Shown: positions 28,920 to 57,433 of the stretch, piece after piece
Layout of the letters: each line of letters opens with the position of its first letter
Position numbering within the stretch: position 1 is the first letter of the stretch
NCBI RefSeq assembly: GCF_023502235.1
Contig: NZ_JAMFLY010000002.1
Span: 558,001 to 622,000, forward strand
DNA length: 64,000 bases
From: Flagellimonas myxillae
Lineage (GTDB): Bacteria; Bacteroidota; Bacteroidia; Flavobacteriales; Flavobacteriaceae
Direction of reading: 5' to 3'
Notes under the pieces: model-generated
What the model was told of the DNA's origin: nothing
Databases searched by the model: none
Seen by the model: the letters and a program-made list of their open reading frames with translations, nothing else
Translations under genes and position numbers: made by a program

Positions 28920-31900
28920 ATGAAAGCTAAGTTACGCCTTGTTTTTTCAATTGCAATATTTTTTGCCTGCTTTTCCATCAATGGTCAACAAGGATATTGG
29001 AAATCCGTTCCAGGGAACAGTACTTTCAAAAGTGCTTCCCTAAAAAGTATGGACAAAGCCAATGGGGTCTATACTTTGGACAAAACCAGAATTTTGCAGG
29101 ATTTGGTTCCAGCAACCAAAATCAATAGAGAAAAACGAACGATCTATCTGCCCAACGAAAAGGGTGAGGTTATCGCCTTTGATGTAAAGGAAACTTCGGT
29201 TTTGCATCCTGAGTTGGCCAAAAAGTACCCTGAACTAAAATCGTTTACTGGGATTAGCAGAAATGGGAAATACAAAGTAAAACTCAGCAAGTCCCATAAA
29301 GGTATGGACGGGATGTTGGTCAACTTAAAGAATCAAAAAACCACCTTTATTGAGCAAGTGACCGGCCAAGAAGATACCTATGTGGTATACGAAAAAGGTG
29401 CGGAGGCTGTGGGCATGGGGAGTTTTGTCTGCAAAACCACGGATATCCAAAAATTAGTGGGCAAGACCATCACTCCATTGGTGGACGACCAGTTATTGCG
29501 CAAATACAGAATAGCCGTTTCCGTTTCGGGAGAGTATACCGAACATCACGGGGGAGCGGTAGCGGATGCCTTGGCCGCGATCAATACTACCTTAACAAGA
29601 GTCAATGAAGTTTTTGAAACGGATCTGGGCGTGACCCTGGAACTGATTCCCAACAACGATTTGATTATTTTTACGGACCCAGATACAGACCCATATAATG
29701 GAAACTTGAATTCTGAGGTGCAGACCACCTTGACCTCCACTATTGGGGAGGAGAACTACGATGTGGGGCATTTGTTCCACAAGGTGGGAGAGGGACAAGA
29801 CAATGGAAATGCAGGGTTTATTGGAGCCGTTTGCACGGATAATTCCAAGGGAAGCGCTTTTTCGGCCGCCTTTAACCCCCAAGGGGATATTTTTGATTTG
29901 GATTTCGTGGCCCATGAATTGGGACACCAGTTTGGAGCCAACCACACCTGGTCTTTTGAAAGCGAAGGGACCGGTGTACAGGCAGAACCTGCTAGTGGAA
30001 CCACCATTATGGGATATGCTGGAATTGTTCCTGGAAACAATGTGGCACCCAACGGGAGTGACTATTTCCATTTTTATAGCATTCAGCAAATCTCCACTTA
30101 TTTGCAGTCGGCTGCCTGTGCTGAAGAGACCGGTATAGTGAACAATCCGCCTGTATTGACCCCAGTAGGGGATTACGTTATCCCCAAGGGAACTGCATTT
30201 GTTTTGGAAGGAATAGCCACTGATCCTGATGTTGGGGATGTGCTGACCTATGCATGGGAACAAATAGATGATGGGGTTGTTACCACCTCTACTTTTGGTC
30301 CCGACAATCCAAGCGGTGCCAATTTTAGATCCTTGCCCCCCACTACAGATCCAGCTAGATATTTTCCCAATTTGTCCAGGGTAGTGCAAGGGGAGCTTAC
30401 CCAAACAGAACCCGCAACCAATGAAGCTTGGGAAACTGTTTCAAACGTGGCGAGAAACTTTGGCTTCGCGTTTACGGTACGGGACAATGCTCCAGGGGGT
30501 GGACAGGTGGTTTCCGATGTTTTGGATGTGCAAGTAGTGAGTGCTGCAGGCCCCTTTGTAGTTACTTCACAAAGCTCCAATGAAATTTATGAAGGTGGCT
30601 CTACCCAGGAAGTAACCTGGGATGTGGCCAATACCAATATTCTTCCCGTAAATGCCCAAAACGTGGATATCCTGCTTTCAATAGATGGCGGTGTAACCTT
30701 TCCCATCATCTTGGCGGAAGATACCCTTAATGATGGGAGCGAGGAAATACTTATACCCGGAGATGCGACCACCCAGGCAAGAATTATGGTAAAGGCAAGT
30801 GACAATGTGTTTTTTGCCGTGAACGCCTCGGATTTTACCATTCAAGAGTCCGAAGTGGTTTTGGATTTTCAAGATTTGGTCCATGAAGTTTGTCAACCCG
30901 ATGACGTAATTATTCCATTTACTTATCAAACCTTTGGTGGCTTTGCCGAGGCCTCCACTTTTTCTGTGGACCTTCCTGCAGGCCTAAATGGGGTTTTTGC
31001 CCCCCTTAATGCCAGCGCCGATGACACTTCGGTCCAATTGACCCTTTCAAACACCAATGGCGTGTCCCCTGGGGAATATGACATAACCGTAACCTCTACA
31101 GCGGCATCGGTGACCAAGAATGTACCGCTCACCCTTATCATTAAAGACAACAATTTTACAGATGTTGTGCTTCAATCCCCTTTGGATGCGGCAGCTAATA
31201 TTTCAATAAATACCCAGTTGGAATGGGAGGCCAATGTGCTTTATTCCAGTTATGATGTTGAAGTGGCAACAGATGTAGGCTTTACCAATATTGTGGAGTC
31301 GACGAGTGTACCGTTCAATTTTTACCAGACAACCAGTCTTGTTGCACAAACTGAATATTTTTGGAGGGTTCGGCCCAACAATGCTTGTGGTACCGGAACT
31401 TTTGGAGCGCCCTTTAGTTTTACCACCATTCAGGTGGATTGCAAGACTTTGGAACCCTTGGGGTTGCCTTTGGAAATATCTGCAGTTGGGACCTCTACAC
31501 TCACAAGTAGTGTACAACTTTTTGAAGATCTGTCTGTTTCGGATGTTAACTTAAATCTCGAGTTAAATCATACTTTTCTAGAAGATTTGATTATCAGTCT
31601 AACCTCCCCTGCTGGAACCAAGGTTACCTTAATTTCCAATACTTGCGGGGATGCCAATAATATCAATGCTACATTTGATGATGAGGGTATAGAACTAGTT
31701 TGCGGCAACAATCCAGCCATTGAGGGAACTGTGAGGCCATTGGGTTCCCTAAGTTCGTTTATTGGGGAGTCAACCTTGGGGGAATGGACATTGGAGGTAT
31801 TGGATACGGCTACAGGTGATGGCGGTTCAATAATCGCTTTTTCCTTGGAGGTTTGTGCGGAAGGTGCCTTTAGACCCGATGAGGATGAGGATGGGGTTTT

Positions 31901-32690
31901 CGATGATGGGGACGACCTTTGTCTGGGTACGCCCAAAGGTACGGAAGTGGATACTTCAGGTTGCCCCATTAACCGTTTTCCTGTTGATAATTTCACCGTG
32001 GAAATCCAAAGTGAGAGTTGCCGAAGTAGCAATGATGGATCAATAGGAATCACAGCTGTGGACACTTCCATTACCTATACGGCTGTTTTGGATGGTGGAA
32101 ATGGCCCCTCAAATTTTGATTTTACGAGTACACATACCTTTCAAAATCTACAGGCTGGAAGTTATTCTTTATGTATTACCGGAACCGATGGAATGATAAC
32201 TTATCGGGAAACCTGTTTCAATTTGGTCTTGACCCAACCGGAATTGCTGTCGGTTTTTGCTGAGTCTGTGGGTGAGGCCTTAAATCTCACCATGGAGGGT
32301 GGAAGTCTGTACAATGTGGAATTGAATGGATTGGTGACACAAACCCAAGAAAAAGAGATTCAACTACAACTAAAAGAAGGTCGGAATACCCTTCGGGTAT
32401 TTACTGGGTTACCATGCCAAGGGGTTTACGAGGAGTCTTTCTTTATTTCTTCCCGACCTATATTATATCCAAATGCCGTGCAGCAGACTGCCAGGGTATT
32501 CTTAAATGGATATAGCGGCAGCGTAAAACTCGAGGTTTTTTCATCCATTGGGCAATTGGTTTTGACCCGGGATGAGATTCTGACTGGAAACGATTTGGAC
32601 GTGGATATGTCCCTCCTTCCCCAAGGAACGTATTATATACGAGTTGTGACCGGGGATAAGCAAGAAGTAATTAAAATGATCAAGGAATGA
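28920..32690 (+). CDS. Secreted reprolysin-like metallopeptidase with P-domain and T9SS sorting domain
   Basis: A 1256-residue exoprotein. It has a signal peptide (FSIAIFFACFSINGQ, residues 9-23), a propeptide, and an M12B/reprolysin catalytic domain with HELGHQFGANH (zinc ligands His332, His336, His342; Glu333 catalytic) and a Met-turn TIMGYAG near 364. After it come Ig/PKD-like domains, an Fn3-like domain at about 750-840, a proprotein-convertase P-domain at about 850-980, a TSP3-like calcium motif (DEDEDGVFDDGDDLC, about 988), two beta domains and a C-terminal type A T9SS sorting domain. It is expected at the cell surface or secreted. Its TGA overlaps the ATG of a lipoprotein gene. Confidence 0.9.
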   Translation: MKAKLRLVFSIAIFFACFSINGQQGYWKSVPGNSTFKSASLKSMDKANGVYTLDKTRILQDLVPATKINREKRTIYLPNEKGEVIAFDVKETSVLHPELAKKYPELKSFTGISRNGKYKVKLSKSHKGMDGMLVNLKNQKTTFIEQVTGQEDTYVVYEKGAEAVGMGSFVCKTTDIQKLVGKTITPLVDDQLLRKYRIAVSVSGEYTEHHGGAVADALAAINTTLTRVNEVFETDLGVTLELIPNNDLIIFTDPDTDPYNGNLNSEVQTTLTSTIGEENYDVGHLFHKVGEGQDNGNAGFIGAVCTDNSKGSAFSAAFNPQGDIFDLDFVAHELGHQFGANHTWSFESEGTGVQAEPASGTTIMGYAGIVPGNNVAPNGSDYFHFYSIQQISTYLQSAACAEETGIVNNPPVLTPVGDYVIPKGTAFVLEGIATDPDVGDVLTYAWEQIDDGVVTTSTFGPDNPSGANFRSLPPTTDPARYFPNLSRVVQGELTQTEPATNEAWETVSNVARNFGFAFTVRDNAPGGGQVVSDVLDVQVVSAAGPFVVTSQSSNEIYEGGSTQEVTWDVANTNILPVNAQNVDILLSIDGGVTFPIILAEDTLNDGSEEILIPGDATTQARIMVKASDNVFFAVNASDFTIQESEVVLDFQDLVHEVCQPDDVIIPFTYQTFGGFAEASTFSVDLPAGLNGVFAPLNASADDTSVQLTLSNTNGVSPGEYDITVTSTAASVTKNVPLTLIIKDNNFTDVVLQSPLDAAANISINTQLEWEANVLYSSYDVEVATDVGFTNIVESTSVPFNFYQTTSLVAQTEYFWRVRPNNACGTGTFGAPFSFTTIQVDCKTLEPLGLPLEISAVGTSTLTSSVQLFEDLSVSDVNLNLELNHTFLEDLIISLTSPAGTKVTLISNTCGDANNINATFDDEGIELVCGNNPAIEGTVRPLGSLSSFIGESTLGEWTLEVLDTATGDGGSIIAFSLEVCAEGAFRPDEDEDGVFDDGDDLCLGTPKGTEVDTSGCPINRFPVDNFTVEIQSESCRSSNDGSIGITAVDTSITYTAVLDGGNGPSNFDFTSTHTFQNLQAGSYSLCITGTDGMITYRETCFNLVLTQPELLSVFAESVGEALNLTMEGGSLYNVELNGLVTQTQEKEIQLQLKEGRNTLRVFTGLPCQGVYEESFFISSRPILYPNAVQQTARVFLNGYSGSVKLEVFSSIGQLVLTRDEILTGNDLDVDMSLLPQGTYYIRVVTGDKQEVIKMIKE

Positions 32691-33373
32691 AGAAGGTATT
32701 GCTATTTTCGGCCATTTTTGTTTTGCTGTCTTCCTGTGGTAAAAATGATGATTCACCACCCATTCCAGACGGAGCTAATTTGCTATTTCCCTTGGAGAAC
32801 TCTGAATGTACAACTGGGGTTAGTATCAATGACAATTTGAGCCAGATCACCTTTGAATGGGAAGCCTCTTCGAATACAGACAGCTATACTTTGAATGTGG
32901 TAAACTTGGAGACCAATATTCCACAAACCATATCGACAGCTGCAACCTCGGCAAGTTTGTCCATAGAGAAGGGTACCCCATTCTCCTGGTCGGTAACTTC
33001 CCAAAATTCGGATACGGACCAAATTGCCACAAGCAACACTTGGTTGTTCTACAATGCAGGGGCACAGGTGAATTATGCGCCATTTCCTGCCCAACTTATT
33101 GGCCCGGTTTCAGGGTCAACGGTTCAAAAAAGTATATCCAATGAAGTGACGCTACAGTGGTCCGGTGCAGATGTGGAGGATGATATAGCGTCCTTTGAGG
33201 TATTTTTCTCCGATCAAAGCCCACCTACCTCTTCCTTGGGCACCTTGGATTCCGAAACTGCGGAAATGGATGTTACTGTACAATCTGATACTATCTACTA
33301 CTGGAAAATTATCACCACCGATGCAGCGGGTAACACTTCCGATTCTGGAATTTTTGACTTTAAAGTGTTTTAA
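32687..33373 (+). CDS. Fn3-like lipoprotein coupled to the metallopeptidase
   Basis: A 228-residue lipoprotein. The signal peptide ends in the lipobox LSSC (Cys17), followed by acidic residues (GKNDDSP), a common export signal to the surface in Bacteroidota. Two Fn3/Ig-like domains follow (ITFEWEASSNTDSYTL, and VTLQWSGADVEDDIASFEVFF), joined by a conserved NYAPFPAQLIGP linker. The gene starts inside the stop of the metallopeptidase gene (ATGA, 4-bp overlap). It is a paralogue of 56735-57433, which is coupled in the same way to a BspA-like protein. The function is unknown; a cargo-specific anchor or chaperone is proposed. Confidence 0.85.
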   Translation: MKKVLLFSAIFVLLSSCGKNDDSPPIPDGANLLFPLENSECTTGVSINDNLSQITFEWEASSNTDSYTLNVVNLETNIPQTISTAATSASLSIEKGTPFSWSVTSQNSDTDQIATSNTWLFYNAGAQVNYAPFPAQLIGPVSGSTVQKSISNEVTLQWSGADVEDDIASFEVFFSDQSPPTSSLGTLDSETAEMDVTVQSDTIYYWKIITTDAAGNTSDSGIFDFKVF

Positions 33374-33379
33374 TAAGGC

Positions 33380-34012: not shown

Positions 34013-34031
34013 AAGGTTGGGTTTTGCTCAA

Positions 34032-34080: not shown

Positions 34081-34098
34081 ATCGGTTTTGGTGAAGAG

Positions 34099-34755: not shown

Positions 34756-34771
34756 TATATATTAAATTGAT

Positions 34772-35844: not shown

Positions 35845-35875
35845 CAATCCCATTTCAAAAAGGGACTACAAAAAT

Positions 35876-36176: not shown

Positions 36177-37595
36177 ATGAAAGTTAGCCACAAAGACTAT
36201 ACACGAAGACATTTTATAAAACAATCAACCCTTACCTCCATAGCGCTTATTTCGTTGGTCAATTGCACTAACAGGAAGAGGAAAAGCGAAGCAGTGCCTA
36301 ATAATGGGATGGCAAAGTTGGAGTTGAAACCTGATCCCAAAGGATACCTTGATCTTCCAGAAGGATTTTCGTATAAAGTTATCTCCAAATCCGGAGAGAA
36401 AATGTCGGATGGTCTATTGGTACCTGGAAGACCGGACGGGATGGGCGCCTTTCTGGCTGCAGATGGAAAAATCGTAATCATCCGAAACCACGAAAACAGT
36501 GCCACGGATTTGGAACACAGTCCCTTTGGCCCTGCTAATGAAATGCTGCCCGATATAGATTTGGATAGATTGTACGACTCTGGCAGCGGAACCAATCCCG
36601 GATTGGGAGGCACAACAACCCTAATTTATGACGAGGATACCGGAGTGGTTGTTGACGAATTTTTGAGCCTTGGGGGCACTTACAGGAATTGTGCCGGGGG
36701 GGTGTCACCATGGGGTACTTGGATTACTTGTGAGGAAGATGTCACCAAAGCAGATGGAAAACAGATTCTGGAAGACCATGGATATGTATTTGAAGTATCC
36801 ATGAATGCCAAGGAAATGGTAGAGCCAAAACCCGTCAAAGCCATGGGACGATTTAACCATGAGGCAGTGGCCGTTGACCCGGATTCTGGGTGTGTATATC
36901 TTACCGAAGATAGGCATGATGGACTCATTTACAGGTTTATTCCAAAGGAGAAAGAAAATCTTTTGGCAGGGGGAGAATTACAGGCGTTAGCCGTACGCGA
37001 CAATCAAAGTCTGGATACAAGAAATTGGGAATCACCCACAGTTCCCAAAAATAATCCCATGGAAGTTTTCTGGATTGATTTGGATGATGTGGAATCCCCG
37101 GAAGACGATTTGCGATATCGCGGCTTTGATCTTGGAGCTGCCCGGTTTGCTCGGGGCGAGGGTATATGGATGGGAGATGGTGAACTTTTCTTTGCGTGCA
37201 CCAATGGAGGGCCGGATAATTTTGGGCAAGTTTTTAAATATAGTTTGTCCCCTAAGGAAGGTCTGGAAGGAGAAAATGAGGCCCCAGCTTCCCTTGAACT
37301 TTATGCAGAATCCAACGACAAAACGGTATTGCACATGTGCGACAACCTTTTTATCGCTCCTTGGGGAGATGTGCTGCTCTGCGAGGACAACGGCGAGCTA
37401 AACCATATTAGAGGTATTGACAAAGACGGGAAAATTTATACCTTGGCCCGAAACCAAAGTTCTAAGTCAGAACTTACCGGCTTGGTCTTTTCCCCTTCAG
37501 GAAAGACACTTTTTGTGAATGTGCAGGAGAATGGAGACACTGTCGCCATTACTGGACCATGGGAGAGATTTGGCAAATCTGAGGTAAGAATTTGA
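36177..37595 (+). CDS. PhoX family (DUF839) secreted phosphatase-like protein
   Basis: A 472-residue protein. A twin-arginine motif TRRHFIKQS (about 9-17) followed by a hydrophobic stretch ending in VNC suggests Tat export and possibly lipidation. The PhoX beta-propeller signature NCAGGVSPWGTWITCEE contains Cys172, the residue expected to bridge the iron pair, and NHEAVAVDP, TEDRHDGLIYRF and ACTNGGPDNFGQV supply further ligands. PhoX uses Fe and Ca to hydrolyse phosphate monoesters in the periplasm. The Cys codon is followed by a run of seven G. It starts the locus that ends with SusC/SusD. Confidence 0.85.
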   Translation: MKVSHKDYTRRHFIKQSTLTSIALISLVNCTNRKRKSEAVPNNGMAKLELKPDPKGYLDLPEGFSYKVISKSGEKMSDGLLVPGRPDGMGAFLAADGKIVIIRNHENSATDLEHSPFGPANEMLPDIDLDRLYDSGSGTNPGLGGTTTLIYDEDTGVVVDEFLSLGGTYRNCAGGVSPWGTWITCEEDVTKADGKQILEDHGYVFEVSMNAKEMVEPKPVKAMGRFNHEAVAVDPDSGCVYLTEDRHDGLIYRFIPKEKENLLAGGELQALAVRDNQSLDTRNWESPTVPKNNPMEVFWIDLDDVESPEDDLRYRGFDLGAARFARGEGIWMGDGELFFACTNGGPDNFGQVFKYSLSPKEGLEGENEAPASLELYAESNDKTVLHMCDNLFIAPWGDVLLCEDNGELNHIRGIDKDGKIYTLARNQSSKSELTGLVFSPSGKTLFVNVQENGDTVAITGPWERFGKSEVRI

Positions 37596-37788
37596 TTGCT
37601 CCAATTACGCCCTTTATTTGAAGTTTAAAGAGAAATTTCGTGTACCCTCTTCGCTTTGAACTAAATCCAAAATCTGCTACACCAATGGTAAAAGAGTGTC
37701 CTAAAGTTTCTTGATATCAACTTTCCAAATTTTTACATATTAAACAAGTTTATCCTATATTTAATATGAAGCTCTACTGCAAATTTGA

Positions 37789-38634
37789 ATGAAACGAATC
37801 GCCAACGTTTTAAAGCTAGAATTCCCTTATCTGGATACAGTCCAGAACAAACTCTTGCTTGTTGGATTTTTGGCGGTGTTTTGTCTGGTTTTCTTAAATG
37901 TCTATGTCCCCTTTAATATTGAAGTATGGGGAGGTACCATTACAGGATACATAATTGTTGGAACAGTAGTTATCTTGATCAGTCAATTTGTATTGAGGCC
38001 GCTTTTCAGGCTAAATAAGTTTAAGACCTACAGTTTTTTGCTCTGGGTTGCCCTTGAAGTGCTTTTGATTGCATGGGGGATGTATTTGGCCTTTGGCCCC
38101 GAATTGGACACCTTTTTGGAGAAGTGGAACGAGTACTGGCTAACCGTAAGATATACCACTTTGATTCTGGTTGGTCCCTATTTGGCCTTTGTTTGGTATT
38201 TGAGTTTTCGATATAAATTGGCCAAGATCAAGGCCATTCAAAACCATAGCTTGGAATTCAATTCAGAATTGGGGGATAAACTCCTGACCATCATTGGTGA
38301 AAATGAAAAAGTGATATTGGCCATCAAGTACCAAAAACTGCTTTGTGTAAAATCTGCAGGAAACTATTTGGAACTGTATTATCTAAAAGGGGAAGATCAG
38401 GTAAAGGAATTGGTTCGGGGTAGTTTAAAGGAGCTTGAAAAAAAAATCGAGGAGAGTAATATTGTAAAAGTGCACCGTTCGTACCTGGTCAATGTAGATC
38501 ACATTTCTTCCCTAAAGAAAACCAAGAAGAGCTACCAGTTGAATGTGCAGCATATGCCCAATACCTCCATTCCCGTTTCCGCTGGATTCAAGAACTCATT
38601 TGAAGAAGCGCTGAAACAAAAAGTATCCCATTAG
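37789..38634 (+). CDS. Membrane-anchored LytTR transcriptional regulator
   Basis: A 281-residue one-component regulator. Four membrane helices (about 23-41, 46-68, 80-100 and 122-143) are followed by a linker and a C-terminal LytTR DNA-binding domain (about 180-278) with IKYQKLLCVKSAGNYLELYY and IVKVHRSYLVNVDHI (quoted as KSAGNYLELYY and VHRSYLVN). There is no receiver domain. It stands 193 bp after phoX and 130 bp before the cytochrome c peroxidase gene, so it may control this locus. The 193-bp spacer holds no gene; a near-consensus TATATTTA lies about 35 bp before the start. Confidence 0.87.
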   Translation: MKRIANVLKLEFPYLDTVQNKLLLVGFLAVFCLVFLNVYVPFNIEVWGGTITGYIIVGTVVILISQFVLRPLFRLNKFKTYSFLLWVALEVLLIAWGMYLAFGPELDTFLEKWNEYWLTVRYTTLILVGPYLAFVWYLSFRYKLAKIKAIQNHSLEFNSELGDKLLTIIGENEKVILAIKYQKLLCVKSAGNYLELYYLKGEDQVKELVRGSLKELEKKIEESNIVKVHRSYLVNVDHISSLKKTKKSYQLNVQHMPNTSIPVSAGFKNSFEEALKQKVSH

Positions 38635-38764
38635 TAACATTATAGGTATCATTCATCACAAAACCCTCTGTTTATAGTTGTTGGGGGACTCATCTTTATT
38701 TATTTGTGGCACTGCCAAATCCAATTAGAAACAATTAAGGACCAAATTCGGCCCCCAGTTTTGA

Positions 38765-39976
38765 TTGGAAAAACAGATAATTAAGTTGAGTAAAAGGAAT
38801 ACGATAAAATCGGGTTTGTACGCTGCATGTTTAGGTGTTATGGTATTCATCCTATATGCCTCCAATGTGTCGTCTTCACCCTACGTCGATGTACCCTTGC
38901 TCAATTGCAATTGCCCTCCAGGATTTAAACTGACCGAAGACAATACATGTATCGCCCGAAATCTATATGATCAATATGCCGTGCGTAACCTAGCCGGTGT
39001 TGGGGGTTTAAAATCAGCTTTGCCAAAAATCAGGGACGGTTTTTCCCCACAGGAAATTGACTTGGGCAGATATTTGTTTTTTGACCCGGTACTTTCTGGC
39101 GATGGAACCATTTCTTGCGCTTCCTGTCACGACCCTAAAAAAGGATTTAGCGACGGTTTGGCCACCAGCATTGGGATAGATGGGCACAAGGCAAAACGCG
39201 CTGCGCCCACTTTATGGAATGTGGGTTACCTGAAAAAGTTGTTTTGGGATGGGCGTTCCACAAACTTGGAAGACCAGATGGAAGGGCCGTTGTTCTCGGA
39301 GGAAGAGATGGGGAACACACCCGAGAACCTGTTAAGTTCCCTAAACGGCATAGAAAACTATAGAAAACTTTTTGCCGAGGCCTTTCCGGATAGAAATTCA
39401 AATGCAAAGATTTCATTGGATGAGATCTATACAGCAATCGCTGCATTTGAGGCCTCCCTTATTTCCTTGAACAGCAAGTATGATCAATATGCACATGGCT
39501 ACCATGATGCGCTCAACCAAAAGGAAATTGAAGGACTCAACATTTTTAGGTCTTTCGTTGCCCGATGTGCTGAGTGCCATACACCGCCATTGTTTACAAA
39601 CCAACAGTTTGCCGTTATTGGAACCCCCGAACCTGACGGTTTGCCGTTGGACCCCGGTGCAGAAGTGCCGTTCAAGGACAAGTCCCTTAGAGGGGCATTT
39701 AAAGTGCCCAGTCTTCGAAATATTGAAAAGACAGCACCCTACATGCACTCTGGACGTTTCAAAACGCTTCGTGAAACCGTACAGTTTTATACCAATGGTC
39801 GTGGGCATGCAGTACCTGAGGGTGAAGACCTTTTGATACACTGGCACATTTGGGAGCCCAATTTAACCGATTATGAGTTGGATAGGTTGGTGGATTTTCT
39901 CAAAACCCTGACCGATGAAACCTTTACCCCACAAGTTCCTGACAAAGTGCCTTCTGGCTTAGAAATATCATTCTGA
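38765..39976 (+). CDS. Di-heme cytochrome c peroxidase (MauG/CcpA family), TTG start
   Basis: A 403-residue periplasmic di-heme protein. Heme sites are CASCH (Cys118, Cys121, His122) and CAECH (Cys268, Cys271, His272). LRGAFKVPSLRNIEKTAPYMHSG contains the distal methionine region of the second heme. It begins with a membrane anchor or signal (about 20-38) and a short Cys-containing CNCPPGF segment. The frame opens at TTG 38765, with an in-frame TGA directly before it; the next candidate is TTG 38786 and no ATG precedes the hydrophobic segment. Members reduce H2O2 or make protein-derived cofactors. It lies 22 bp before the beta-helix/cytochrome gene. Confidence 0.9.
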   Translation: MEKQIIKLSKRNTIKSGLYAACLGVMVFILYASNVSSSPYVDVPLLNCNCPPGFKLTEDNTCIARNLYDQYAVRNLAGVGGLKSALPKIRDGFSPQEIDLGRYLFFDPVLSGDGTISCASCHDPKKGFSDGLATSIGIDGHKAKRAAPTLWNVGYLKKLFWDGRSTNLEDQMEGPLFSEEEMGNTPENLLSSLNGIENYRKLFAEAFPDRNSNAKISLDEIYTAIAAFEASLISLNSKYDQYAHGYHDALNQKEIEGLNIFRSFVARCAECHTPPLFTNQQFAVIGTPEPDGLPLDPGAEVPFKDKSLRGAFKVPSLRNIEKTAPYMHSGRFKTLRETVQFYTNGRGHAVPEGEDLLIHWHIWEPNLTDYELDRLVDFLKTLTDETFTPQVPDKVPSGLEISF

Positions 39977-39998
39977 ATTAACTATCAAATAAACAAAC

Positions 39999-41501: not shown

Positions 41502-41541
41502 GAAGAACCAACCTTCTTCAAAATAACCTAACTAAATCTAT

Positions 41542-44500: not shown

Positions 44501-44628
44501 TCTATAACGCAGCGGGCGATATCGACCCAGAGGCCACCTATAGCAGTGGACCCACTAGCACGGCTTTTGAGCATTCTTCCCTGCCTTCCACAAGAAGCTA
44601 TGGGCTTAATCTAAAACTCAACTTTTAA
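41542..44628 (+). CDS. SusC/RagA-type TonB-dependent outer-membrane transporter
   Basis: A 1028-residue outer-membrane protein. It has a signal peptide ([17 protein letters not shown]), a CarboxypepD_reg domain ([27 protein letters not shown]), a plug domain with [20 protein letters not shown] and the SusC signature [20 protein letters not shown] (cited as [13 protein letters not shown]), and a 22-strand barrel ending in LNLKLNF. It pairs with SusD 11 bp downstream. The ligand is not evident: no glycoside hydrolase, peptidase or transporter gene for a known glycan follows. Confidence 0.95.
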
Positions 44629-44639
44629 AATTGATGACT

Positions 44640-48692: not shown

Positions 48693-51600
48693 ATGCTAAA
48701 AGGCTACATTGCTACAATTCTTTTTCTTTATTCTTTTGTTGTTTTTCCCCAAGATTTTGTAACCACCTGGAAAACAGATAATATAGGTGCTACTGGGAAC
48801 AATCAGATCAGTATTCCGACCCACACAAGTTCAACCTATGACTATACGGTGGACTGGGGAGATGGTAGTTCGGATACGAACGTGACCGGCGATATTACCC
48901 ATACCTATGCGATTCCCGGCACCTATACGGTTACCATTTCCGGTCTATTCCCTAGAATATATTTTGAAGATCTTTTGAATACCAAAGATCCAATGAAGCT
49001 ATTGACGGTGGAACAATGGGGAAGCAACCCATGGCAATCCATGTTCGGTGCGTTTTCAGGGTGTGGAAATATGGATGTTGTAGCTACAGACGTCCCGGAC
49101 CTATCTCTGGTTACGGATTTAGCCAGGATGTTCCAGGGGTGTACCCTCTTGGTGGGGAATAATTCTTTTACCACCTGGGATATGACCACCGTATTGTACA
49201 TGGGGGAAATGTTCGAGGATGCTACTATGTTCAACCAACCCATAGGATCTTGGGACGTTAGCGGGGTGGAGACCATGAATAGCTTGTTTAGAGGTGCCTT
49301 GGCCTTTGACCAGGACATTAGTGGATGGGATACCGGAAACATCATGTGGATGAGTCAAATGTTTATGGGTACCTCCTTTAATCCTGATATAAGCGGTTGG
49401 GACACTTCAAGTTTGACCGATATGTCCTTTATGTTTGAGATGAATGATACATTCAATCGGGATATTTCATCGTGGGACACAAGCAACGTTAGATGGATGA
49501 GTAGGGCCTTTTTGGGTGCAACAGCATTTAACCAAGATATTAGCTCCTGGGATGTGGGTAGTGCAGAATTCATGAGCGAAGTTTTTTCCGGAGCCTCCTC
49601 CTTCAATCAAGATTTAAGTACCTGGAATATTGCAAAGGCTAGCAATATGACATCCATATTTGACGATTCCGGACTATCGGACGAAAATTATAACAATATC
49701 CTAATTGGATGGAGCAATCTGCCCACATTACAGGAAGACGTCAAGTTTGGGGCAAGCGGAAACCAGTTTTGTGAAGGGGGTCCTGCGCGACAAAACCTTA
49801 TTGTCACGTATAATTGGGAGATAAATGATGGTGGAATCTCTGCAGGGTGCACTGTGGACCAACAAAGAGCTTTTGTTACCACATGGCAGATCAGCGATGC
49901 AAGCAATCCGGCTGTAATTCCCACCCATCCTAGCGAAAGTTATTCGTATACAGTGGATTGGGGTGACGGAAATGTGGATTCAGACGTTACGGGAAATGCT
50001 TCACATACTTATAGTCAAACGGGTACCTACGATATTGCCATAACCGGGACCTTTCCCAGAATACATTTTAACTCTGGGACTGTAAATGCTGCTTTAATTG
50101 AAAATGTGATACAATGGGGGGATATGGAATGGACGTCGATGGAAGGAGCGTTTTCCAATTGTGTAAACTTGGATGTCACCGCCAAGGACACACCCAACTT
50201 ATCGCTGGCAACTTCGGCCAACAGCATGTTCAGTAATTGTTCATCCTTGGTTGGAAATACAAGCTTAAATAAATGGGATGTTTCTGGATTGGTGGATGTG
50301 GGTGAAATGTTTTCGGGAGCAACCCAATTCAATCAAATTCTTTCAAATTGGAACACATCAAGCGTTACCAATATGTTCAGAATGTTCTACCAGAGTGGAT
50401 TTCAGAACAGTTTGGGTACTTGGGATGTTTCCAATGTCGGCAATCTTACCGAAGTGTTGACGGGCAGTCAACTCACTACTGTAAATTTTGATAACACCCT
50501 TGTCGCATGGAGTCAGTTGGGGAGCCTTCAAAACAATCTGCAATTTGATACAGGATCTAGTGAATATTGTTTGGGCGCAACTGCCAGACAATCTATAATA
50601 GATAGTTACGGATGGACCATTAACGACAATGGGGAAAATTGCCCAACACAAAATGCCTTTGTCACTACTTGGAAAACCGACAACGAAGGCATGTCGGAAG
50701 ACAATGCCCTTTCCATCCCAATTGTAGGCGGGCCATACACGATTGATTGGGGGGATGGAACCGTGGAAATAGATTTGTTTGGTACAGCTACCCATACGTA
50801 CACCACAGTTGGGACATATACGGTTTCCATTGTTGCAGATGCCGTCTCCATACAACATAACAGCTATCCTGGCAATGAGGCGTTCAGCGATGCCACCAAG
50901 CTATTGGAAATAAATCAATGGGGAGATATACAATGGAACTCCATGTTGGCGGCTTTTGCCGGATGCTCAAATATGGATGTTGTGGCCTATGATGTTCCTG
51001 ATTTTTCAGGACTAACCTCCCTTTTTGGAATGTTTTCCTATTGTGGTTCTTTAAAAGGAAATGCCACGTTCAACGCTTGGGATATTTCCAACATTGACAA
51101 TTTAACCCAGGTTTTTTACGTATGCTCCCAATTCAATGCAGATATTTCCAATTGGGATGTAAGTAATGTAACAGCCATAAGCAATCTTTTTGTCAACTGC
51201 TCCATTTTTAACCAGGACATTTCCAATTGGGATGTTTCCAGCGTTACAGATATGGGCGGAATGTTCAGTGGAGCTATTCAGTTTAATCAGGACATATCCG
51301 GTTGGAATGTATCCAATGTCACCAGTATGAGGAGTATGTTTCAACACTCAGAATTTAACCAAGACATTTCTGGGTGGGATGTATCCAATGTTACCGATAT
51401 GACCGCCATGTTTAACCAAACTCCGAATTTTAATCAGGACATTTCTGGATGGGATGTTTCCAGTGTAACGGATATGAGCAGTATGTTTGGCGGAACTGGG
51501 GCATTTAACCAAGATATATCCGGATGGGATGTATCCAATGTCACCCGCATGTGGGCGACCTTTTCAAATTCAACAGTGTTTAACCAAGACATATCGGGAT

Positions 51601-54600
51601 GGGATGTATCCAATGTTACCAACATGTTTTGGTTGTTTGCCCGTGCTACTGCGTTCAATCAGGATTTGGGCAATTGGGATGTTTCCAAGGTTACCGATAT
51701 GACCGACATATTTGAAAGTGGTAATATGTCCAACTATAATTATGATAGAACCTTGATAGGCTGGGCAGGCCTTCCGTCCTTGCAGTTCGGGGTTACATTT
51801 GATGCCCCACAAAACCAATATTGTGCGTCAGAGGAAGCTAGACAGAACATAATTGACACCTATAATTGGATAATCAATGATGGTGGGGAACTTAGCAATT
51901 GTGGAAGTCCATTTGTCACTACTTGGAAAACGGATAATCCTGGTCTTTCAGAGGATAATCAGATAACTATTCCAACTTTTCCAGGAGAAACATACGACTA
52001 TACAGTGGATTGGGGTGATGGCTCTACGGATTCCAATGTAACCGGTGATATTACCCATACCTATGCCACTCCAGGAACCTATACGGTTTCCATAACCGGC
52101 GTATTCCCAAGGATTTACTTTAACGACTTTACCCTTAATTTTTCTGATTTCACCGGAGATGAGTTAAAGCTTTTGACCATAGAACAATGGGGCAACATAC
52201 ATTGGACCTCCATGGAAGCGGCCTTTGCCGGATGCTGGAACCTCCAGTTCAATGCAACGGACATTCCTGACTTGACTAGCGTAAGCAGCACCCGCAACAT
52301 GTTTTACAATTGTTTGTTCTTCGCGGGCAATGAAAGTTTTGCCGATTGGGACGTGAGCGTGGTAACCGATATGGCCTACATGTTCGACAAAACTACTTTT
52401 GATCAAGACATCTCCGCATGGGATGTTTCCAATGTTGAGTATATGTCCTATATGTTTTATAGCAGTCGGTTCAATCATGATATAAATGGTTGGGACGTAA
52501 GCAATGTTCGATGGATGGAGGGGATGTTCTCAAGTGGGCAATTCAACCAAGACCTTTCCAATTGGGACGTTAGCAAGGTTATGAGCATGGAGCACATGTT
52601 CAGCAGCACTTATTTCAATCAGGATATCTCTTCTTGGGATGTTTCAAGTGTTACCAATATGACCTATATGTTCACCCAGGGACATTTTGACCAGGATATT
52701 AGCGGTTGGGACGTTTCCAATGTTTCGGCCATGGATTTTATGTTCGATGCCTCTGATCTGTCCGATGAAAATTACGATAACATACTCTTGGGATGGAGCC
52801 AGCTTGCTTCGCTACAAAACGGAGTGAATTTAGGGGCTAATGAGGCCTATTATTGTGATTCTGAAGCAGCCAGGGCACTTCTTATAAACACCTACGGATG
52901 GACCATAAATGATTTGGGAATAAACTGTGAGGCACCAATTCCCTTTATCACTACTTGGAAAACAGATAATCCCGGACCATCTGAAGATAATCAGATCACC
53001 ATTCCTACACATCCATTGGAGAATTATGATTACACTGTGGATTGGGGGGATGGCTCAACCGATGAAGGGGTCACTGGAGATTTTACCCACACCTATGCCT
53101 CACCCGGAACCTATCAGGTGACCATCTCGGGAAAGTTCCCAGGAGTGTTTTTTAATGGCTCTCCAAATGGCCACAGTATAGCACCCACAGATTCTGATGA
53201 TCAAAAGATACTTTCTGTTGATCAATGGGGCAATAATAGATGGTTTACCACAACCTACGCCTTTGCTGGATGTTCCAATTTGGATGTTTTGGCCACAGAC
53301 GAACCGGATTTTTCCAGGTCGGGACTTAATACTTCCGGAATGTTCAGGGATTGTGCATCCCTTGTCGGAAACGACTCTTTCAATGCTTGGGAAGTGGCGA
53401 ATGTAACGGTAATGGGCTATATGTTTAGTGAAGCAAGCCTATTTGACCAAGATTTGGGAAGTTGGGATGTATCCAATGTACTGGACATGGCCTCCATGTT
53501 TGATGGAAGCGGATTGTCTACCGCAAATTATGATAAAACATTAAAGGGATGGAGTGCATTACCGTCCTTGGCGAATGGCATTTGGTTAGGCGCCAACAAC
53601 ACTCAATATTGTACTTCCGAAACCGAAAGACAACTTATAATCGATACCTATGGATGGAACATCAACGATGGGGGCAAGGCTCCAGATGGTTGTGAATTGG
53701 TAGGAGCTTTTGTAACCACATGGAAAACGGACAATCCTGGAGTATCCAACAATAACCAAATTACCATTCCCACTACCGGTGGAGGTTACAACTACGATGT
53801 TGATTGGGGAGATGGAAACGTAGACCTTGGAGTTACTGGGGATATCACCCACACCTACGATGTTCCTGGAACTTACGATGTTGCCATTAAAGGGGACTTC
53901 CCTCAAATATATTTTGTAAACCAGGGAGATAGGGAAAAGATATTATCGGTAAAGCAATGGGGCCATATATCCTGGAGATCCATGCTCAATGCCTTTCACG
54001 GTTGCTCAAACTTGGATGTGGAAGCCACAGATATTCCGGATTTGAGCAATGTAACTACCACCCAATACATGTTTAGGTTATGTGGGTCTCTTGTGGGGAA
54101 TGGCACTTTTAATGGCTGGGACACAAGTACGGTCACCAGCATGGATTTTATGTTCCGGGAAGCCACCCAATTTAATCAAGATATTTCTGGATGGGACACC
54201 GGGCAGGTGAATTCCATGATTGGCATGTTTCTAGATGCGAAGGCGTTTGATCAAAACATTGGTTCTTGGGATGTTCAGAATGTGAGCAGTTTGGACCGAA
54301 CATTCAGTGGAGCGGAGGTGTTCAATCAGGATCTGGCCAATTGGAATGTTTCCAATGTTTCCAATATGTGGTCGATGTTTGCCAACGCCCTTGCCTTTAA
54401 TCAGAATTTAGGAGATTGGGATGTATCCAATGTGTCCAATATGACTTCCATCTTTGATGGCGCGGGAATGTCAACTTCAAATTATGACCAAACCTTAATG
54501 GGTTGGAGTGCATTACCATCATTAACCAATGGTGTTGTGCTAGGTGCGAACAATGCACAATATTGCGCATCCGAATCTGAAAGACAACAGATTATCGATA

Positions 54601-56738
54601 CCTATGGATGGACAATAAATGATGGTGGAAAGGCCGTTATCGGGTGCCAAGTGGAAGATGCGTTTATCACGACATGGAAAACGGACAATCCTGGATTTTC
54701 AGACGACAACCAAGTTTCGATTTCTACCTCGGCGCCAGCAGGTGGAACGTATAACTACAATGTGGATTGGGGTGACGGAACTGCGGATAGTGGTGTGACC
54801 GGGAATATTGTGCACACCTATAGCACACCGGGAGTTTATCAAATTGTTATTTCGGGGGAGTTTCCCAGGATAAACTTCAATGGCAATAATGCAGATAATG
54901 AAAAGATTTTGCAGATTAATCAATGGGGGTCTATACAGTGGACTTCGATGGCTGCTGCCTTTGCAGGGTGCAGCAATCTTGATGTGGTGGCTGACGATGT
55001 TCCAGACCTTTCCAATGTTTCATCAACTGCACGAATGTTTTCGGGATGTACTTCCTTGGTCGGGAATGGAGCTTTCCAAAATTGGCCAATGGGAACTATC
55101 ACGATTACCGATAGCATGTTTGCCCTAGCGGAACAATTCAATGCGGATATTTCCAATTGGGATGTTTCAAACGTCACTAGCATGTTTGCCATGTTCAACG
55201 GGGCAACTTCCTTTAATCAAAATATTGGTTCTTGGAATGTTGCGAATGTTACCAATTTGGGTGGCATGTTTGCCAATTCCGGATTCAACCAGGATATATC
55301 AGCTTGGGATGTTGGGAACGTAACGGATTTGGGAGGAATGTTTAGCAGTAATACTGTTTTCAACCAAGATATTTCTACCTGGGATGTGGGCACCGTAACC
55401 GATATGTCGTCCATGTTCCATAATGCCGAAAGTTTCAATCAGGATGTATCGGCTTGGGATGTTTCCAATGTTACGGATATGACGAACATGTTTAATACAG
55501 CCATATCCTTTAATGCAAATATTGGAAACTGGGATGTGGGCAATGTTCAAGTCATGGTAGGAATGTTTCAAAGTGCTACCGCTTTTGATCAAGACTTGGG
55601 TTTATGGGATGTTGGCAACCTAAGCAGTACCATGTGGATGTTTGCCGGAGCCACTTCCTTTGATCAAAGTCTCGCCGGTTGGAACGTCCAGAATGTGTCG
55701 AATATGGGCCTCATGTTTGATATGACTGGATTGTCTTCAGAAAACTACGATTCCACACTTAAAGCCTGGGCACAACTACCTTCTTTGCAAATTGGGGTGT
55801 CGTTCGATGCAGGTAGTAGTCTATATTGCACTGGGGAAGACGCAAGACAAGCGTTGATAGACAATTTTGGTTGGACCATTTCCGATGGGGGCAAAATTCC
55901 CTTGTGCAATGAAGATAATGATGGGGACGGGATTTTGGATCAAGTGGATTCCTGTCTGGACACTAGACCTGGGGCAAATGTAGGTCCCGACGGATGTGAG
56001 ATGATTCCAAATAATGCAATTAAGGTTTATGCCCTTACACCGAGCTGTATAGGGAGTCAGGATGGGGCCATTGAGATTGCTGTGGAAACAACAGGCCTTG
56101 AGATGGATATTGTTTTGGAAGGTTCCGGGGCTCCTGCCCAATACAACGATGTGTCAACCTCTGCCCCGTTTAACATTACCGACCTTGCTGCAGGGAATTA
56201 CACCCTGACCATTTCCATTCCGGAAATAGTATTTGAACAGCAATACGGTATTACAATCAACGAAGTTGACAACATTACCGGAAAGCGAACTTCCTTGGAA
56301 AACAAAACCAATGCGGTTGTGTATGAAGTATCCGGAAGTACAGCATATGAGGTGGTGGTAAATGGCAAAGCCCGTTTCTTTAACTTCATTGATACCTATA
56401 GTCAAACCATCCGATTGGATAATTTGGATACCTACAACGAGATTACCATAAAAGGCTCAAGTGATTGCCAAGGAAAGGTAGCCGATACCTTTTTTATGGG
56501 CGAAACAATCTTGGTCTACCCCACAATTACATCAGATAAAATAAACCTTATTGGGGATTATGATCACCTTACTGTCGGAGTATTTAGTATGGCGGGGCAA
56601 CTTGTAAAGCACGACGAAGTAAATGGGGCAACCGGGTTTACCAAAACGATGGATGTGAGTGCCTTGGAATCTGGAATGTACATGGTCCGAATTGTGGCGG
56701 ACAATAAAGAGAAAACTGTGAAAATTGTAAAGAAATGA
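48693..56738 (+). CDS. BspA/DUF285 surface protein with seven PKD cassettes and T9SS sorting domain
   Basis: A 2681-residue exoprotein. It has a signal peptide (residues 1-20) and seven cassettes starting near residues 23, 395, 657, 1075, 1419, 1674 and 1992. Each cassette opens with a PKD-like domain (TTWKTDNPG, VDWGDGS, GTYTVSI), continues with DUF285 repeats of about 24 residues (FNQDISGWDVSNVT) and closes with QYC...RQ.IIDTYGWTINDGG. A TSP3-like calcium motif (DNDGDGILDQVDSC) begins near 2408, then two beta domains and a sorting domain (about 2600-2681). DUF285 proteins are leucine-rich-repeat-like adhesins. The cassettes differ in repeat number. Its stop overlaps a lipoprotein start by 4 bp. 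Confidence 0.92.
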   Translation: MLKGYIATILFLYSFVVFPQDFVTTWKTDNIGATGNNQISIPTHTSSTYDYTVDWGDGSSDTNVTGDITHTYAIPGTYTVTISGLFPRIYFEDLLNTKDPMKLLTVEQWGSNPWQSMFGAFSGCGNMDVVATDVPDLSLVTDLARMFQGCTLLVGNNSFTTWDMTTVLYMGEMFEDATMFNQPIGSWDVSGVETMNSLFRGALAFDQDISGWDTGNIMWMSQMFMGTSFNPDISGWDTSSLTDMSFMFEMNDTFNRDISSWDTSNVRWMSRAFLGATAFNQDISSWDVGSAEFMSEVFSGASSFNQDLSTWNIAKASNMTSIFDDSGLSDENYNNILIGWSNLPTLQEDVKFGASGNQFCEGGPARQNLIVTYNWEINDGGISAGCTVDQQRAFVTTWQISDASNPAVIPTHPSESYSYTVDWGDGNVDSDVTGNASHTYSQTGTYDIAITGTFPRIHFNSGTVNAALIENVIQWGDMEWTSMEGAFSNCVNLDVTAKDTPNLSLATSANSMFSNCSSLVGNTSLNKWDVSGLVDVGEMFSGATQFNQILSNWNTSSVTNMFRMFYQSGFQNSLGTWDVSNVGNLTEVLTGSQLTTVNFDNTLVAWSQLGSLQNNLQFDTGSSEYCLGATARQSIIDSYGWTINDNGENCPTQNAFVTTWKTDNEGMSEDNALSIPIVGGPYTIDWGDGTVEIDLFGTATHTYTTVGTYTVSIVADAVSIQHNSYPGNEAFSDATKLLEINQWGDIQWNSMLAAFAGCSNMDVVAYDVPDFSGLTSLFGMFSYCGSLKGNATFNAWDISNIDNLTQVFYVCSQFNADISNWDVSNVTAISNLFVNCSIFNQDISNWDVSSVTDMGGMFSGAIQFNQDISGWNVSNVTSMRSMFQHSEFNQDISGWDVSNVTDMTAMFNQTPNFNQDISGWDVSSVTDMSSMFGGTGAFNQDISGWDVSNVTRMWATFSNSTVFNQDISGWDVSNVTNMFWLFARATAFNQDLGNWDVSKVTDMTDIFESGNMSNYNYDRTLIGWAGLPSLQFGVTFDAPQNQYCASEEARQNIIDTYNWIINDGGELSNCGSPFVTTWKTDNPGLSEDNQITIPTFPGETYDYTVDWGDGSTDSNVTGDITHTYATPGTYTVSITGVFPRIYFNDFTLNFSDFTGDELKLLTIEQWGNIHWTSMEAAFAGCWNLQFNATDIPDLTSVSSTRNMFYNCLFFAGNESFADWDVSVVTDMAYMFDKTTFDQDISAWDVSNVEYMSYMFYSSRFNHDINGWDVSNVRWMEGMFSSGQFNQDLSNWDVSKVMSMEHMFSSTYFNQDISSWDVSSVTNMTYMFTQGHFDQDISGWDVSNVSAMDFMFDASDLSDENYDNILLGWSQLASLQNGVNLGANEAYYCDSEAARALLINTYGWTINDLGINCEAPIPFITTWKTDNPGPSEDNQITIPTHPLENYDYTVDWGDGSTDEGVTGDFTHTYASPGTYQVTISGKFPGVFFNGSPNGHSIAPTDSDDQKILSVDQWGNNRWFTTTYAFAGCSNLDVLATDEPDFSRSGLNTSGMFRDCASLVGNDSFNAWEVANVTVMGYMFSEASLFDQDLGSWDVSNVLDMASMFDGSGLSTANYDKTLKGWSALPSLANGIWLGANNTQYCTSETERQLIIDTYGWNINDGGKAPDGCELVGAFVTTWKTDNPGVSNNNQITIPTTGGGYNYDVDWGDGNVDLGVTGDITHTYDVPGTYDVAIKGDFPQIYFVNQGDREKILSVKQWGHISWRSMLNAFHGCSNLDVEATDIPDLSNVTTTQYMFRLCGSLVGNGTFNGWDTSTVTSMDFMFREATQFNQDISGWDTGQVNSMIGMFLDAKAFDQNIGSWDVQNVSSLDRTFSGAEVFNQDLANWNVSNVSNMWSMFANALAFNQNLGDWDVSNVSNMTSIFDGAGMSTSNYDQTLMGWSALPSLTNGVVLGANNAQYCASESERQQIIDTYGWTINDGGKAVIGCQVEDAFITTWKTDNPGFSDDNQVSISTSAPAGGTYNYNVDWGDGTADSGVTGNIVHTYSTPGVYQIVISGEFPRINFNGNNADNEKILQINQWGSIQWTSMAAAFAGCSNLDVVADDVPDLSNVSSTARMFSGCTSLVGNGAFQNWPMGTITITDSMFALAEQFNADISNWDVSNVTSMFAMFNGATSFNQNIGSWNVANVTNLGGMFANSGFNQDISAWDVGNVTDLGGMFSSNTVFNQDISTWDVGTVTDMSSMFHNAESFNQDVSAWDVSNVTDMTNMFNTAISFNANIGNWDVGNVQVMVGMFQSATAFDQDLGLWDVGNLSSTMWMFAGATSFDQSLAGWNVQNVSNMGLMFDMTGLSSENYDSTLKAWAQLPSLQIGVSFDAGSSLYCTGEDARQALIDNFGWTISDGGKIPLCNEDNDGDGILDQVDSCLDTRPGANVGPDGCEMIPNNAIKVYALTPSCIGSQDGAIEIAVETTGLEMDIVLEGSGAPAQYNDVSTSAPFNITDLAAGNYTLTISIPEIVFEQQYGITINEVDNITGKRTSLENKTNAVVYEVSGSTAYEVVVNGKARFFNFIDTYSQTIRLDNLDTYNEITIKGSSDCQGKVADTFFMGETILVYPTITSDKINLIGDYDHLTVGVFSMAGQLVKHDEVNGATGFTKTMDVSALESGMYMVRIVADNKEKTVKIVKK
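51130..51720 (+). repeat. Tandem DUF285 repeats, cassette 3 of the BspA-like gene
   Basis: About eight consecutive repeats of roughly 72-75 bp, each carrying a close variant of AACCAAGACATTTCTGGATG followed by GGATGTTTCCAATGTTACC. They encode FNQDISGWDVSNVT and its variants. Similar but shorter runs occur in the other six cassettes. DNA similarity is high enough for recombination-driven change in copy number. Confidence 0.8.
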
Positions 56739-57433
56739 AGATAGGGAATCAACTTTTTTGGTATTTGGCAATTGCATTAGTAGTGCAGGCTTGCTCAAGT
56801 GGAGGAAACGATGATCGCGAAACGCCCCCTGTGGAAACGAAAAATCCGCCAGCCAAGGTAGTGGGAACACTACCGGAAAATGGGGAGCCCTGTTCTGATT
56901 ATGAAACGGTATCGGGCAATGATACCAAAGTTTTGGTCCAGTTTAAATGGAATTCCGCACAATTTGCACAAAGCTATGAGCTGACCGTCCGCGATAATGA
57001 CTCCGAAGTTTTTAATGCATCATTTTCTGCCTTGGAGACCAAAGTGGAATTAGATCGTGGAAAAACATATACATGGAATTTAATGTCCATAAATGATGAT
57101 GGCTCCACAAATGGCGATACATATTCCTTTACCACTCCGGGCGTTCAGGTTGGAAATTATGCTCCATATGCAGCAGAGATTGAGGTTGAGTTTGTAGAGG
57201 CAGATACTGAGATGACCATATCTTGGATTGGAAGCGATGAAGACGGGGATTCCTTGACCTATGATGTGTTTGTTTTGATTGATGATGAAACTATATCGGA
57301 AACCTTGGAAACAGAAACCACACAACTCGCCCCAATTGTTTACATTTCTGGGACAGTATATTCCATACGGGTGATATCCAAGGACGGAAACGGAAACTCT
57401 TCCATTTCTGAATTGCAGGTTCAGGCACCGTAA
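56735..57433 (+). CDS. Fn3-like lipoprotein coupled to the BspA-like protein
   Basis: A 232-residue lipoprotein with lipobox VQAC (Cys20) and an acidic/proline stretch (SSGGNDDRETPP). Two Fn3-like domains follow (VLVQFKWNSAQFAQSYELTV, and MTISWIGSDEDGDSLTYDVFV), joined by NYAPYAAEI, where the paralogue at 32687-33373 has NYAPFPAQL. Its ATG overlaps the stop of the BspA-like gene (ATGA). Same place, same coupling and same domain plan as the metallopeptidase-linked lipoprotein, so the two form one family of cargo-partner lipoproteins (inference). Confidence 0.85.
   Translation: MKIGNQLFWYLAIALVVQACSSGGNDDRETPPVETKNPPAKVVGTLPENGEPCSDYETVSGNDTKVLVQFKWNSAQFAQSYELTVRDNDSEVFNASFSALETKVELDRGKTYTWNLMSINDDGSTNGDTYSFTTPGVQVGNYAPYAAEIEVEFVEADTEMTISWIGSDEDGDSLTYDVFVLIDDETISETLETETTQLAPIVYISGTVYSIRVISKDGNGNSSISELQVQAP

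Follow-up and report, generated by a model that had tools for sequence, protein, structure and literature searches.

Two gene pairs in the Flagellimonas myxillae window

The window analyzed here, a stretch of 64,000 nt from the Flagellimonas myxillae genome (assembly GCF_023502235.1, 3.94 Mb; contig NZ_JAMFLY010000002.1, positions 558,001-622,000), contains two gene pairs in each of which the gene for a large cargo protein of the type IX secretion system (T9SS) overlaps the gene for a small lipoprotein. The four open reading frames (ORFs) and both 4-bp ATGA overlaps, which had been described in an earlier reading of the same DNA (the original prediction), are confirmed in the sequence at the following coordinates of the window:

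28920..32690, + strand: cargo 1, M12B reprolysin-like metallopeptidase of 1256 amino acids (aa), with a P-domain, the C-terminal module and a type A T9SS sorting domain
31986..32456, + strand: C-terminal module of cargo 1, 157 aa, with cysteines at module positions 12, 63, 77 and 144
32463..32687, + strand: type A sorting domain of cargo 1 (TIGR04183 / PF18962)
32687..32690, + strand: ATGA, stop of cargo 1 overlapping the start of lipoprotein 1
32687..33373, + strand: lipoprotein 1, 228 aa, with lipobox Cys17, conserved Cys41 and two Fn3-like domains
48693..56738, + strand: cargo 2, BspA-like protein of 2681 aa, with DUF285/PARCEL repeats, PKD, the C-terminal module and a type A sorting domain
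56013..56507, + strand: C-terminal module of cargo 2, 165 aa, with the first and last conserved cysteines present (positions 12 and 152) and the middle pair absent
56517..56735, + strand: type A sorting domain of cargo 2
56735..56738, + strand: ATGA, stop of cargo 2 overlapping the start of lipoprotein 2
56735..57433, + strand: lipoprotein 2, 232 aa, with lipobox Cys20, conserved Cys53 and two Fn3-like domains

As originally proposed, the N-terminal parts of the two cargos are unrelated, with an M12B peptidase and P-domain in cargo 1 and DUF285/PARCEL repeats and PKD in cargo 2, and the C-terminal regions are of the same type: the last 290 residues align from end to end, at 27% identity and with 98 bits when compared one-to-one by BLAST. 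Both cargos score above the cut-off for TIGR04183 and PF18962; because about 160 of the aligned residues precede the sorting domain, the similarity extends beyond this domain and defines a specific common region, hereinafter the module. The two lipoproteins are 31% identical in a pairwise alignment and 23% identical within the 49-row family alignment. The lipobox, the acidic start and the NYAP linker attributed to them are indeed common to both, as is one further cysteine; the linker motif is not strict in the family, where its sole invariant residue is proline. The claim of two Fn3-like domains holds in part: the second domain matches Pfam Fn3 in each protein, and the first is not recognized by Pfam and appears Fn3/Ig-like by alignment.

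Pairing of the lipoprotein with the module

A profile built from the two window lipoproteins detects five copies in the source genome, three of them outside the window, and each of these three lies directly behind a gene that ends in the same module followed by the sorting domain. Given that the module was not used in this search, the adjacency of the three additional lipoproteins to module genes shows that the pairing exceeds chance. A 12-row module profile (which includes the genome's own five sequences) yields five full-length copies, at E of 4e-46 or better, together with 15 partial matches of at most 27.4 bits, 9 of which lie within two very long proteins; a 12-row lipoprotein profile returns, genome-wide, the same five copies and two partial matches of at most 13 bits. 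The correspondence in this genome is one-to-one, all five lipoproteins being located beside all five full-length modules. The gene overlap is 4 bp in three of the five pairs, and the genes of the remaining two are within a few bases of each other. Sorting-domain matches number 17 (16 above the cut-off), of which five belong to the module-bearing cargos; the lipoprotein was found behind none of the 11 other sorting-domain genes checked (the 12th match lacks a clear cargo ORF). One of these 11 is followed, 93 bp on, by another short gene that by eye encodes a lipoprotein, not called by the script pattern. Among the lipoprotein relatives with a named source, the closest come from Allomuricauda/Flagellimonas species. 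A separate locus of the same genome (L178, G000:C9:131000-138000) contains a 4592-aa frame with weak matches to the first half of the module and then, by eye, a PorP/SprF-like gene; this is perhaps the known type B arrangement (see below) within the same genome.

In a sample of 31 Flavobacteriaceae genomes that includes the source genome (cut-offs of E<=1e-8 for the lipoprotein and E<=1e-12 for the module), the lipoprotein is present in 15 genomes and the module in the identical 15. Among the 42 lipoprotein matches of at least 130 bits, a module directly precedes 40, a fused remnant included; of the other two, one has the cargo gene just downstream (locus L091), and one lies at a contig end (L103). 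The 14 weaker matches comprise the second piece of the fused remnant and 13 unpaired sequences; the ones inspected comprise Fn3 segments within proteins about 630 residues long, a single short fragment and a 233-aa protein (58 bits). Conversely, 40 of the 52 modules in this sample are paired with a lipoprotein gene directly downstream. The fused remnant itself (L105:4703-5485) is a 260-aa protein that consists of a signal peptide, part of the module and much of the lipoprotein; we rejected it as evidence of interaction, because it looks like the product of a deletion that brought the two genes together at a shared Ser-Glu-Cys.

Broader scans covered 296 genomes each for the phylum and the class, with a limited number of candidates scored per genome. 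In the phylum scan, 24 genomes match at E<=1e-20, and 14 genomes, 13 from Flavobacteriaceae and one from a different family within the class, yield matches above 110 bits; the module is present at all 19 returned loci above 110 bits, 16 of them new, and at none of the 10 weaker loci. The class scan identified nine module copies in four genomes (E<=1e-15), five of them the source genome's own, with the lipoprotein at all nine; two of the four genomes belong to families other than Flavobacteriaceae. In a survey with one genome per genus of Flavobacteriaceae, 81 of the 159 genomes encode the lipoprotein at E<=1e-40, often in several copies. We examined 108 loci among the matches listed in this survey (five had been sampled previously; most rows from already-sampled genomes were left out), and dropping L266, which has too little upstream DNA, leaves 107 informative loci. 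The module is directly upstream of the lipoprotein gene at 105 of these, including one with a spacer of about 650 bp (L292/L297), directly downstream at one (L256/L298) and in neither position at one (L267/L299). The lipoprotein is thus hardly found away from T9SS cargo genes, a module gene being adjacent at 106 of the 107 informative loci. The original prediction named two conditions that would refute it, a lipoprotein family located mostly elsewhere than next to T9SS cargo genes and cargo C-termini alike in no more than the sorting domain; neither holds. The gene pair is widespread in flavobacteria, and the window is one case of it.

The module and the lipoprotein as a reusable cassette

The N-terminal parts of 60 module-bearing cargos, solo ones included, fall into 21 clusters, defined by BLAST matches at E<=1e-3 that span half of the shorter sequence. 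They include M12B peptidases, BspA-like/DUF285 proteins, leucine-rich repeat (LRR) proteins in two clusters, FG-GAP, GH123, porphyranase, alpha-amylase, GH5 with CBM6, BNR, Ig arrays and others; 6 of 19 representatives scanned show no Pfam match at E<=1e-5. All 60 C-termini match the type A sorting domain models TIGR04183 and PF18962 at E<=0.01, and the type B model TIGR04131 is absent from the 13 NCBIfam families that they match; CHU_C is matched by 5 of the 60 (E<=0.01). The module and the lipoprotein are a reusable cassette joined to varied cargos.

The genes of the cassette are tightly spaced. In 49 pairs, obtained after dropping one duplicate locus and the fused remnant and with start codons picked by rule, the 4-bp overlap occurs 26 times, spacings of -1 to 53 bp 22 times and a spacing of 183 bp once; several of these pairs have a close ortholog of cargo 1 as their cargo and hence are not independent. 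As a background, a 4-bp ATGA-type overlap is possible at 7 of the 141 same-strand neighbor pairs in about 244 kb of the source genome, including the window.

The 60 cargo C-termini were compared with both Pfam and NCBIfam, 49 lipoproteins with Pfam, and the two window lipoproteins with NCBIfam. Neither library returned a model for the module or the lipoprotein as such; the matches are to general fn3, Ig and SusE families and, weakly, to the SprB repeat (PF13573), which the first half of the module matches in 8 of the 60 cargos at E<=0.01 (best 2e-4). No barrel family is among the 21 Pfam families matched by the lipoproteins. Lipoprotein 1 scores 20.6 bits against Riean_0653, below the cut-off of 57. 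In a sequence comparison with solved structures, the lipoprotein profile matches mainly general Fn3 chains, and the best matches of the cargo profile are on the sorting domain, with few and weak ones over the module (E of 0.018 or worse).

Among the 49 aligned lipoproteins, the lipobox cysteine is invariant (by eye and alignment), and 16 match SusE at E<=0.01, the two window lipoproteins not being among them. Two partner lipoproteins carry an additional C-terminal part, which by eye is carbohydrate-binding-like in one (L120:9463-10734, 424 aa) and beta-helix-like in the other (L302:2335-4191, 618 aa). Passages of PMC5080379 describe a lipoprotein export signal (LES) for the surface that consists of a polar or charged residue and acidic residues near positions +2 to +6. 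At positions +2 to +9, all 49 lipoproteins have at least one acidic residue and 34 have at least two; we dropped the acidic start as proof of surface exposure because a small background is not clearly different.

The Fn3/Ig-like folds, the 16 SusE matches and the several glycan-degrading enzymes among the cargos would fit an arrangement in which lipoprotein and cargo act side by side on one substrate, for instance a SusE/F-like glycan binder next to an enzyme, and are inherited together as an operon with no binding between them. This seems improbable to us: the same lipoprotein family accompanies peptidase, LRR, BspA-like and Ig-repeat cargos that have in common the module and the sorting domain, the module-less sorting-domain genes of the source genome (0 of 11) are not followed by the lipoprotein, and, over all pairs, the divergence of the lipoprotein follows that of the module more closely than that of the intervening sorting domain.

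Divergence of lipoproteins and modules in step

To quantify this last trend, we compared the pairwise distances between lipoproteins, modules and sorting domains of the same operons. For 43 non-redundant pairs, the correlation coefficients are 0.86 for lipoprotein and module, 0.56 for lipoprotein and sorting domain, and 0.51 for module and sorting domain; the same three values are 0.89, 0.77 and 0.80 for 16 new pairs and 0.79, 0.55 and 0.50 for 93 further pairs. The operons are related by descent, so these correlations are not independent trials. In bootstrap over operons, the uncorrected difference between the first two coefficients over the first 59 pairs stays above zero (0.18 to 0.39). Among six genomes with several pairs, shuffled cognate labels matched the observed pooled correlation of 0.92 in none of 2000 trials; the sorting domain shows no correlation with the lipoprotein in the source genome (-0.27 vs 0.85 for the module) and in genome G001 (-0.39 vs 1.00, three pairs).

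Such correlations might reflect linkage only, that is, recombination that swaps module and lipoprotein together, combined with a short and saturated sorting domain. The three regions are contiguous, and the sorting domain is short and noisier (split-half reliability of 0.57-0.60 in the larger sets) and correlates with the lipoprotein as well as the module does within genomes G002 and G019. Yet the difference survives correction for split-half reliability (0.98 for the module vs 0.77 for the sorting domain in the first 59 pairs; 0.97 vs 0.85 in the 16 new pairs) and persists, in the first 43 pairs, when the module columns are matched in length (0.72-0.85 vs 0.56). Furthermore, the second half of the module is more strongly correlated with the lipoprotein than with the first half: 0.83 vs 0.58 in the first 59 pairs and 0.76 vs 0.51 in the 93 further pairs. 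The 16-pair replicate fits linkage better in this respect, the values being 0.88 and 0.78 before and 0.97 each after noise correction. Linkage also leaves the rarity of the lipoprotein without a module unexplained, and we consider it very improbable as the sole cause of the correlation.

In a coupling analysis of 159 pairs (effective number, Meff, ~145), 16.0 lipoprotein-module pairs per 10000 are above z 4 compared to 8.8 for lipoprotein-sorting domain, a difference of only about twofold from which we claim no interface.

Conserved cysteines

In the first set, each of the 51 lipoproteins (51 of 54, after removal of a duplicate, a fragment and the remnant) carries, in addition to the lipidated cysteine, another at a conserved position, and 44 of the 51 have no third cysteine in the mature part. 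The further cysteine is also present in 16 of 16 and 101 of 101 lipoproteins of the later sets, in the latter by a position rule. In the module, cysteines occupy positions 12 and 144 in all 60 members of the first set, and positions 63 and 77 are both cysteine in 55 and neither in 5. In the later sets, both are present in 12 and neither in 4 (n=16), and both in 98 and neither in 2, with one cut by the fetched stretch (n=101); a lone loss of Cys63 or Cys77 was not seen in these sets. Because there is no lone loss and the pair is among the strongest couplings (third among the intraprotein ones in the 159 pairs), Cys63 and Cys77 probably form a disulfide. We also considered extra cysteines in seven lipoproteins (L091, L103, L111, L120, L125 twice, and L131) as a clue to a bond and discarded them, as no matching extra cysteine occurs in the listed adjoining modules (at L103, no module is in reach).

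Proposed function of the gene pair

The near-obligate pairing, the reuse with different cargos and the divergence in step suggest that the lipoprotein recognizes the module. Since the partner would be lipid-anchored and the cargo exported to the surface, a dock is the simplest reading. With moderate confidence, we propose that the lipoprotein is the cognate outer-membrane partner of the cargo module and probably serves as a surface dock that retains the cargo on the cell. Under this scheme, the first gene would encode one of various sorts of cargo, be it a peptidase, an adhesin-like repeat protein or a glycan-degrading enzyme, that ends in the module and the type A sorting domain, and the second, closely linked gene the cognate outer-membrane lipoprotein. 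By analogy with what is known for the type A class, the sorting domain would take the cargo out through the T9SS; PorU would cut off this domain, and the module would become the new C-terminus; the lipoprotein, tethered to the outer membrane through its lipid and a linker that is acidic and proline-rich, would bind the module and keep the cargo on the cell. In the most speculative step, the conserved lipoprotein cysteine might form a covalent link by thiol exchange with the module. The resulting extended model, a second, type A route of cognate T9SS display in which module-docked cargo is held covalently by exchange of the lipoprotein cysteine with a conserved module disulfide, appears doubtful; it gains some plausibility from the intermolecular disulfides reported for SprF-GldK and PorG-GldK in passages of PMC12635249.

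Several observations weigh against docking or its covalent variant. Twelve of the 52 modules in the 31-genome sample, all in lipoprotein-bearing genomes, lack a directly downstream lipoprotein gene: at L091, the module follows the lipoprotein gene; at L092, two cargos precede a single lipoprotein, and it belongs to the first; at L101, it comes after a complete pair; at L102, it is truncated; and eight are solo. The lipoprotein of L267/L299 (L299:6182-6889) has no module nearby, and its upstream neighbor is, by eye, a CotH-like lipoprotein. Pooled within the six genomes, the sorting domain correlates with the lipoprotein at 0.87 compared to 0.92 for the module, and it equals or surpasses the module in G002 (0.85 vs 0.73) and G019 (0.99 vs 0.98). 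The coupling analysis gave no defined interface, the inter-protein pairs being spread over all domain combinations. The acidic start is not clearly enriched, at least two acidic residues being present in 34 of the 49 lipoproteins of the family and in 7 of 14 lipoproteins from the same genome (crude calls, some of them false). Finally, the number of cysteines in the module plus sorting domain is even in 56 of the 60 cargos, which favors an internal bond unless there is exchange; a free module cysteine for the lipoprotein is not evident.

The main rival to docking is an export helper: the lipoprotein would face the periplasm and, as a chaperone or loading factor, hold on to the module, maintain the cargo in a competent state and pass it to the translocon, and it need not stay bound outside. 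Near-obligate pairing, adjacent genes and divergence in step are equally expected under this scenario, the acidic start does not establish surface orientation, and, according to passages of PMC12618676, SprF-like partners are required for the export of their own type B cargo. According to the same passages, type A cargo is shuttled by PorV, which makes a cargo-specific helper unexpected. The 12 modules without a directly downstream lipoprotein gene also speak against a helper, although one could act in trans, and a surface role fits better with the one lipoprotein that has a carbohydrate-binding-like extension and the few with about 390 further residues (by eye). We consider the export helper rather unlikely. 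As to the original claim of a dedicated surface anchor, chaperone or receptor, it is supported in part: the near-exclusive adjacency and the divergence in step favor the partnership, and "dedicated" calls for qualification given the 12 modules of 52 with no lipoprotein gene directly downstream.

Other genes of the window

The gene next to the second pair (57824-64000, + strand) encodes a very long repeat protein, PKD-/DUF11-like by eye, that continues beyond the window edge; 2059 aa lie inside the window, and a 3374-aa frame was obtained at the same place in the genome search. Upstream of cargo 2 (36177-46112, + strand) are genes for a PhoX-like phosphatase, a di-heme cytochrome peroxidase, a NosD-like beta-helix protein with cytochrome c, and a SusC/SusD pair. 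An HTTM protein with a vitamin K-dependent gamma-carboxylase lumenal domain is encoded at 26618-27931 (- strand), flanked by genes for seryl-tRNA synthetase and riboflavin kinase/FAD synthetase.

Comparison with known systems

No description of the gene pair was found in the open-access text of PubMed Central (PMC), which leaves out most subscription papers and preprints. Two articles that seemed related, on a lipoprotein elastase (PMC6414381) and on two polysaccharide-related genes (PMC9950754), proved not to be relevant. If the lipoprotein is a dock, it would mark which secreted proteins remain on the cell, including polysaccharide-degrading enzymes, a point of interest given that how PorU chooses between effectors to release and to attach is described, in a passage of PMC10202324, as still to be found. 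A dock would also provide an annotation rule for a protein family that none of the searched libraries models as such, and the module and its partner could serve as a natural tag for surface display.

SusE and SusF are surface glycan-binding lipoproteins. Like the family described here, they are outer-membrane lipoproteins with Ig/Fn3-like domains; what differs is the gene context, which here is set by T9SS cargos that bear a specific module and some of which lack a recognized glycan-active domain. The intermolecular disulfides of SprF-GldK and PorG-GldK join flavobacterial outer-membrane proteins, with a Cys-X-Cys pair as the proposed donor (passages of PMC12635249); these are other proteins, on the periplasmic side, whereas the conserved cysteines of the module and the lipoprotein are seen in sequence alone.

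Type A cargo is attached to anionic lipopolysaccharide (A-LPS) by the general PorU/PorV/PorQ/PorZ complex, as described in part of PMC10202324. The module-bearing cargos have a sorting domain of the same family and presumably follow the same export route; the difference is that attachment there is through an LPS-linked C-terminus and here a lipoprotein gene is linked to the cargo. The closest parallel is with type B cargo, such as SprB with SprF and PG1035 with PorP, for which the cognate outer-membrane partner is commonly encoded directly downstream (passages of PMC12618676 and PMC9143113). In both cases, the partner gene directly follows the cargo gene (here at 105 of 107 informative loci), and, as far as these passages go, type B systems also comprise several pairs per genome and some orphan cargos, with the partner proposed as the cargo anchor. 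The differences from the type B C-terminal domain and PorP/SprF are that the sorting domain here is of type A (60 of 60 cargos), that the partner is an Fn3-like lipoprotein rather than a FadL-family barrel, and that the region in common is an extra module placed ahead of the sorting domain. A cognate partner of T9SS cargo is thus a known theme, and what differs here is that other protein families and a different class of sorting domain are involved.

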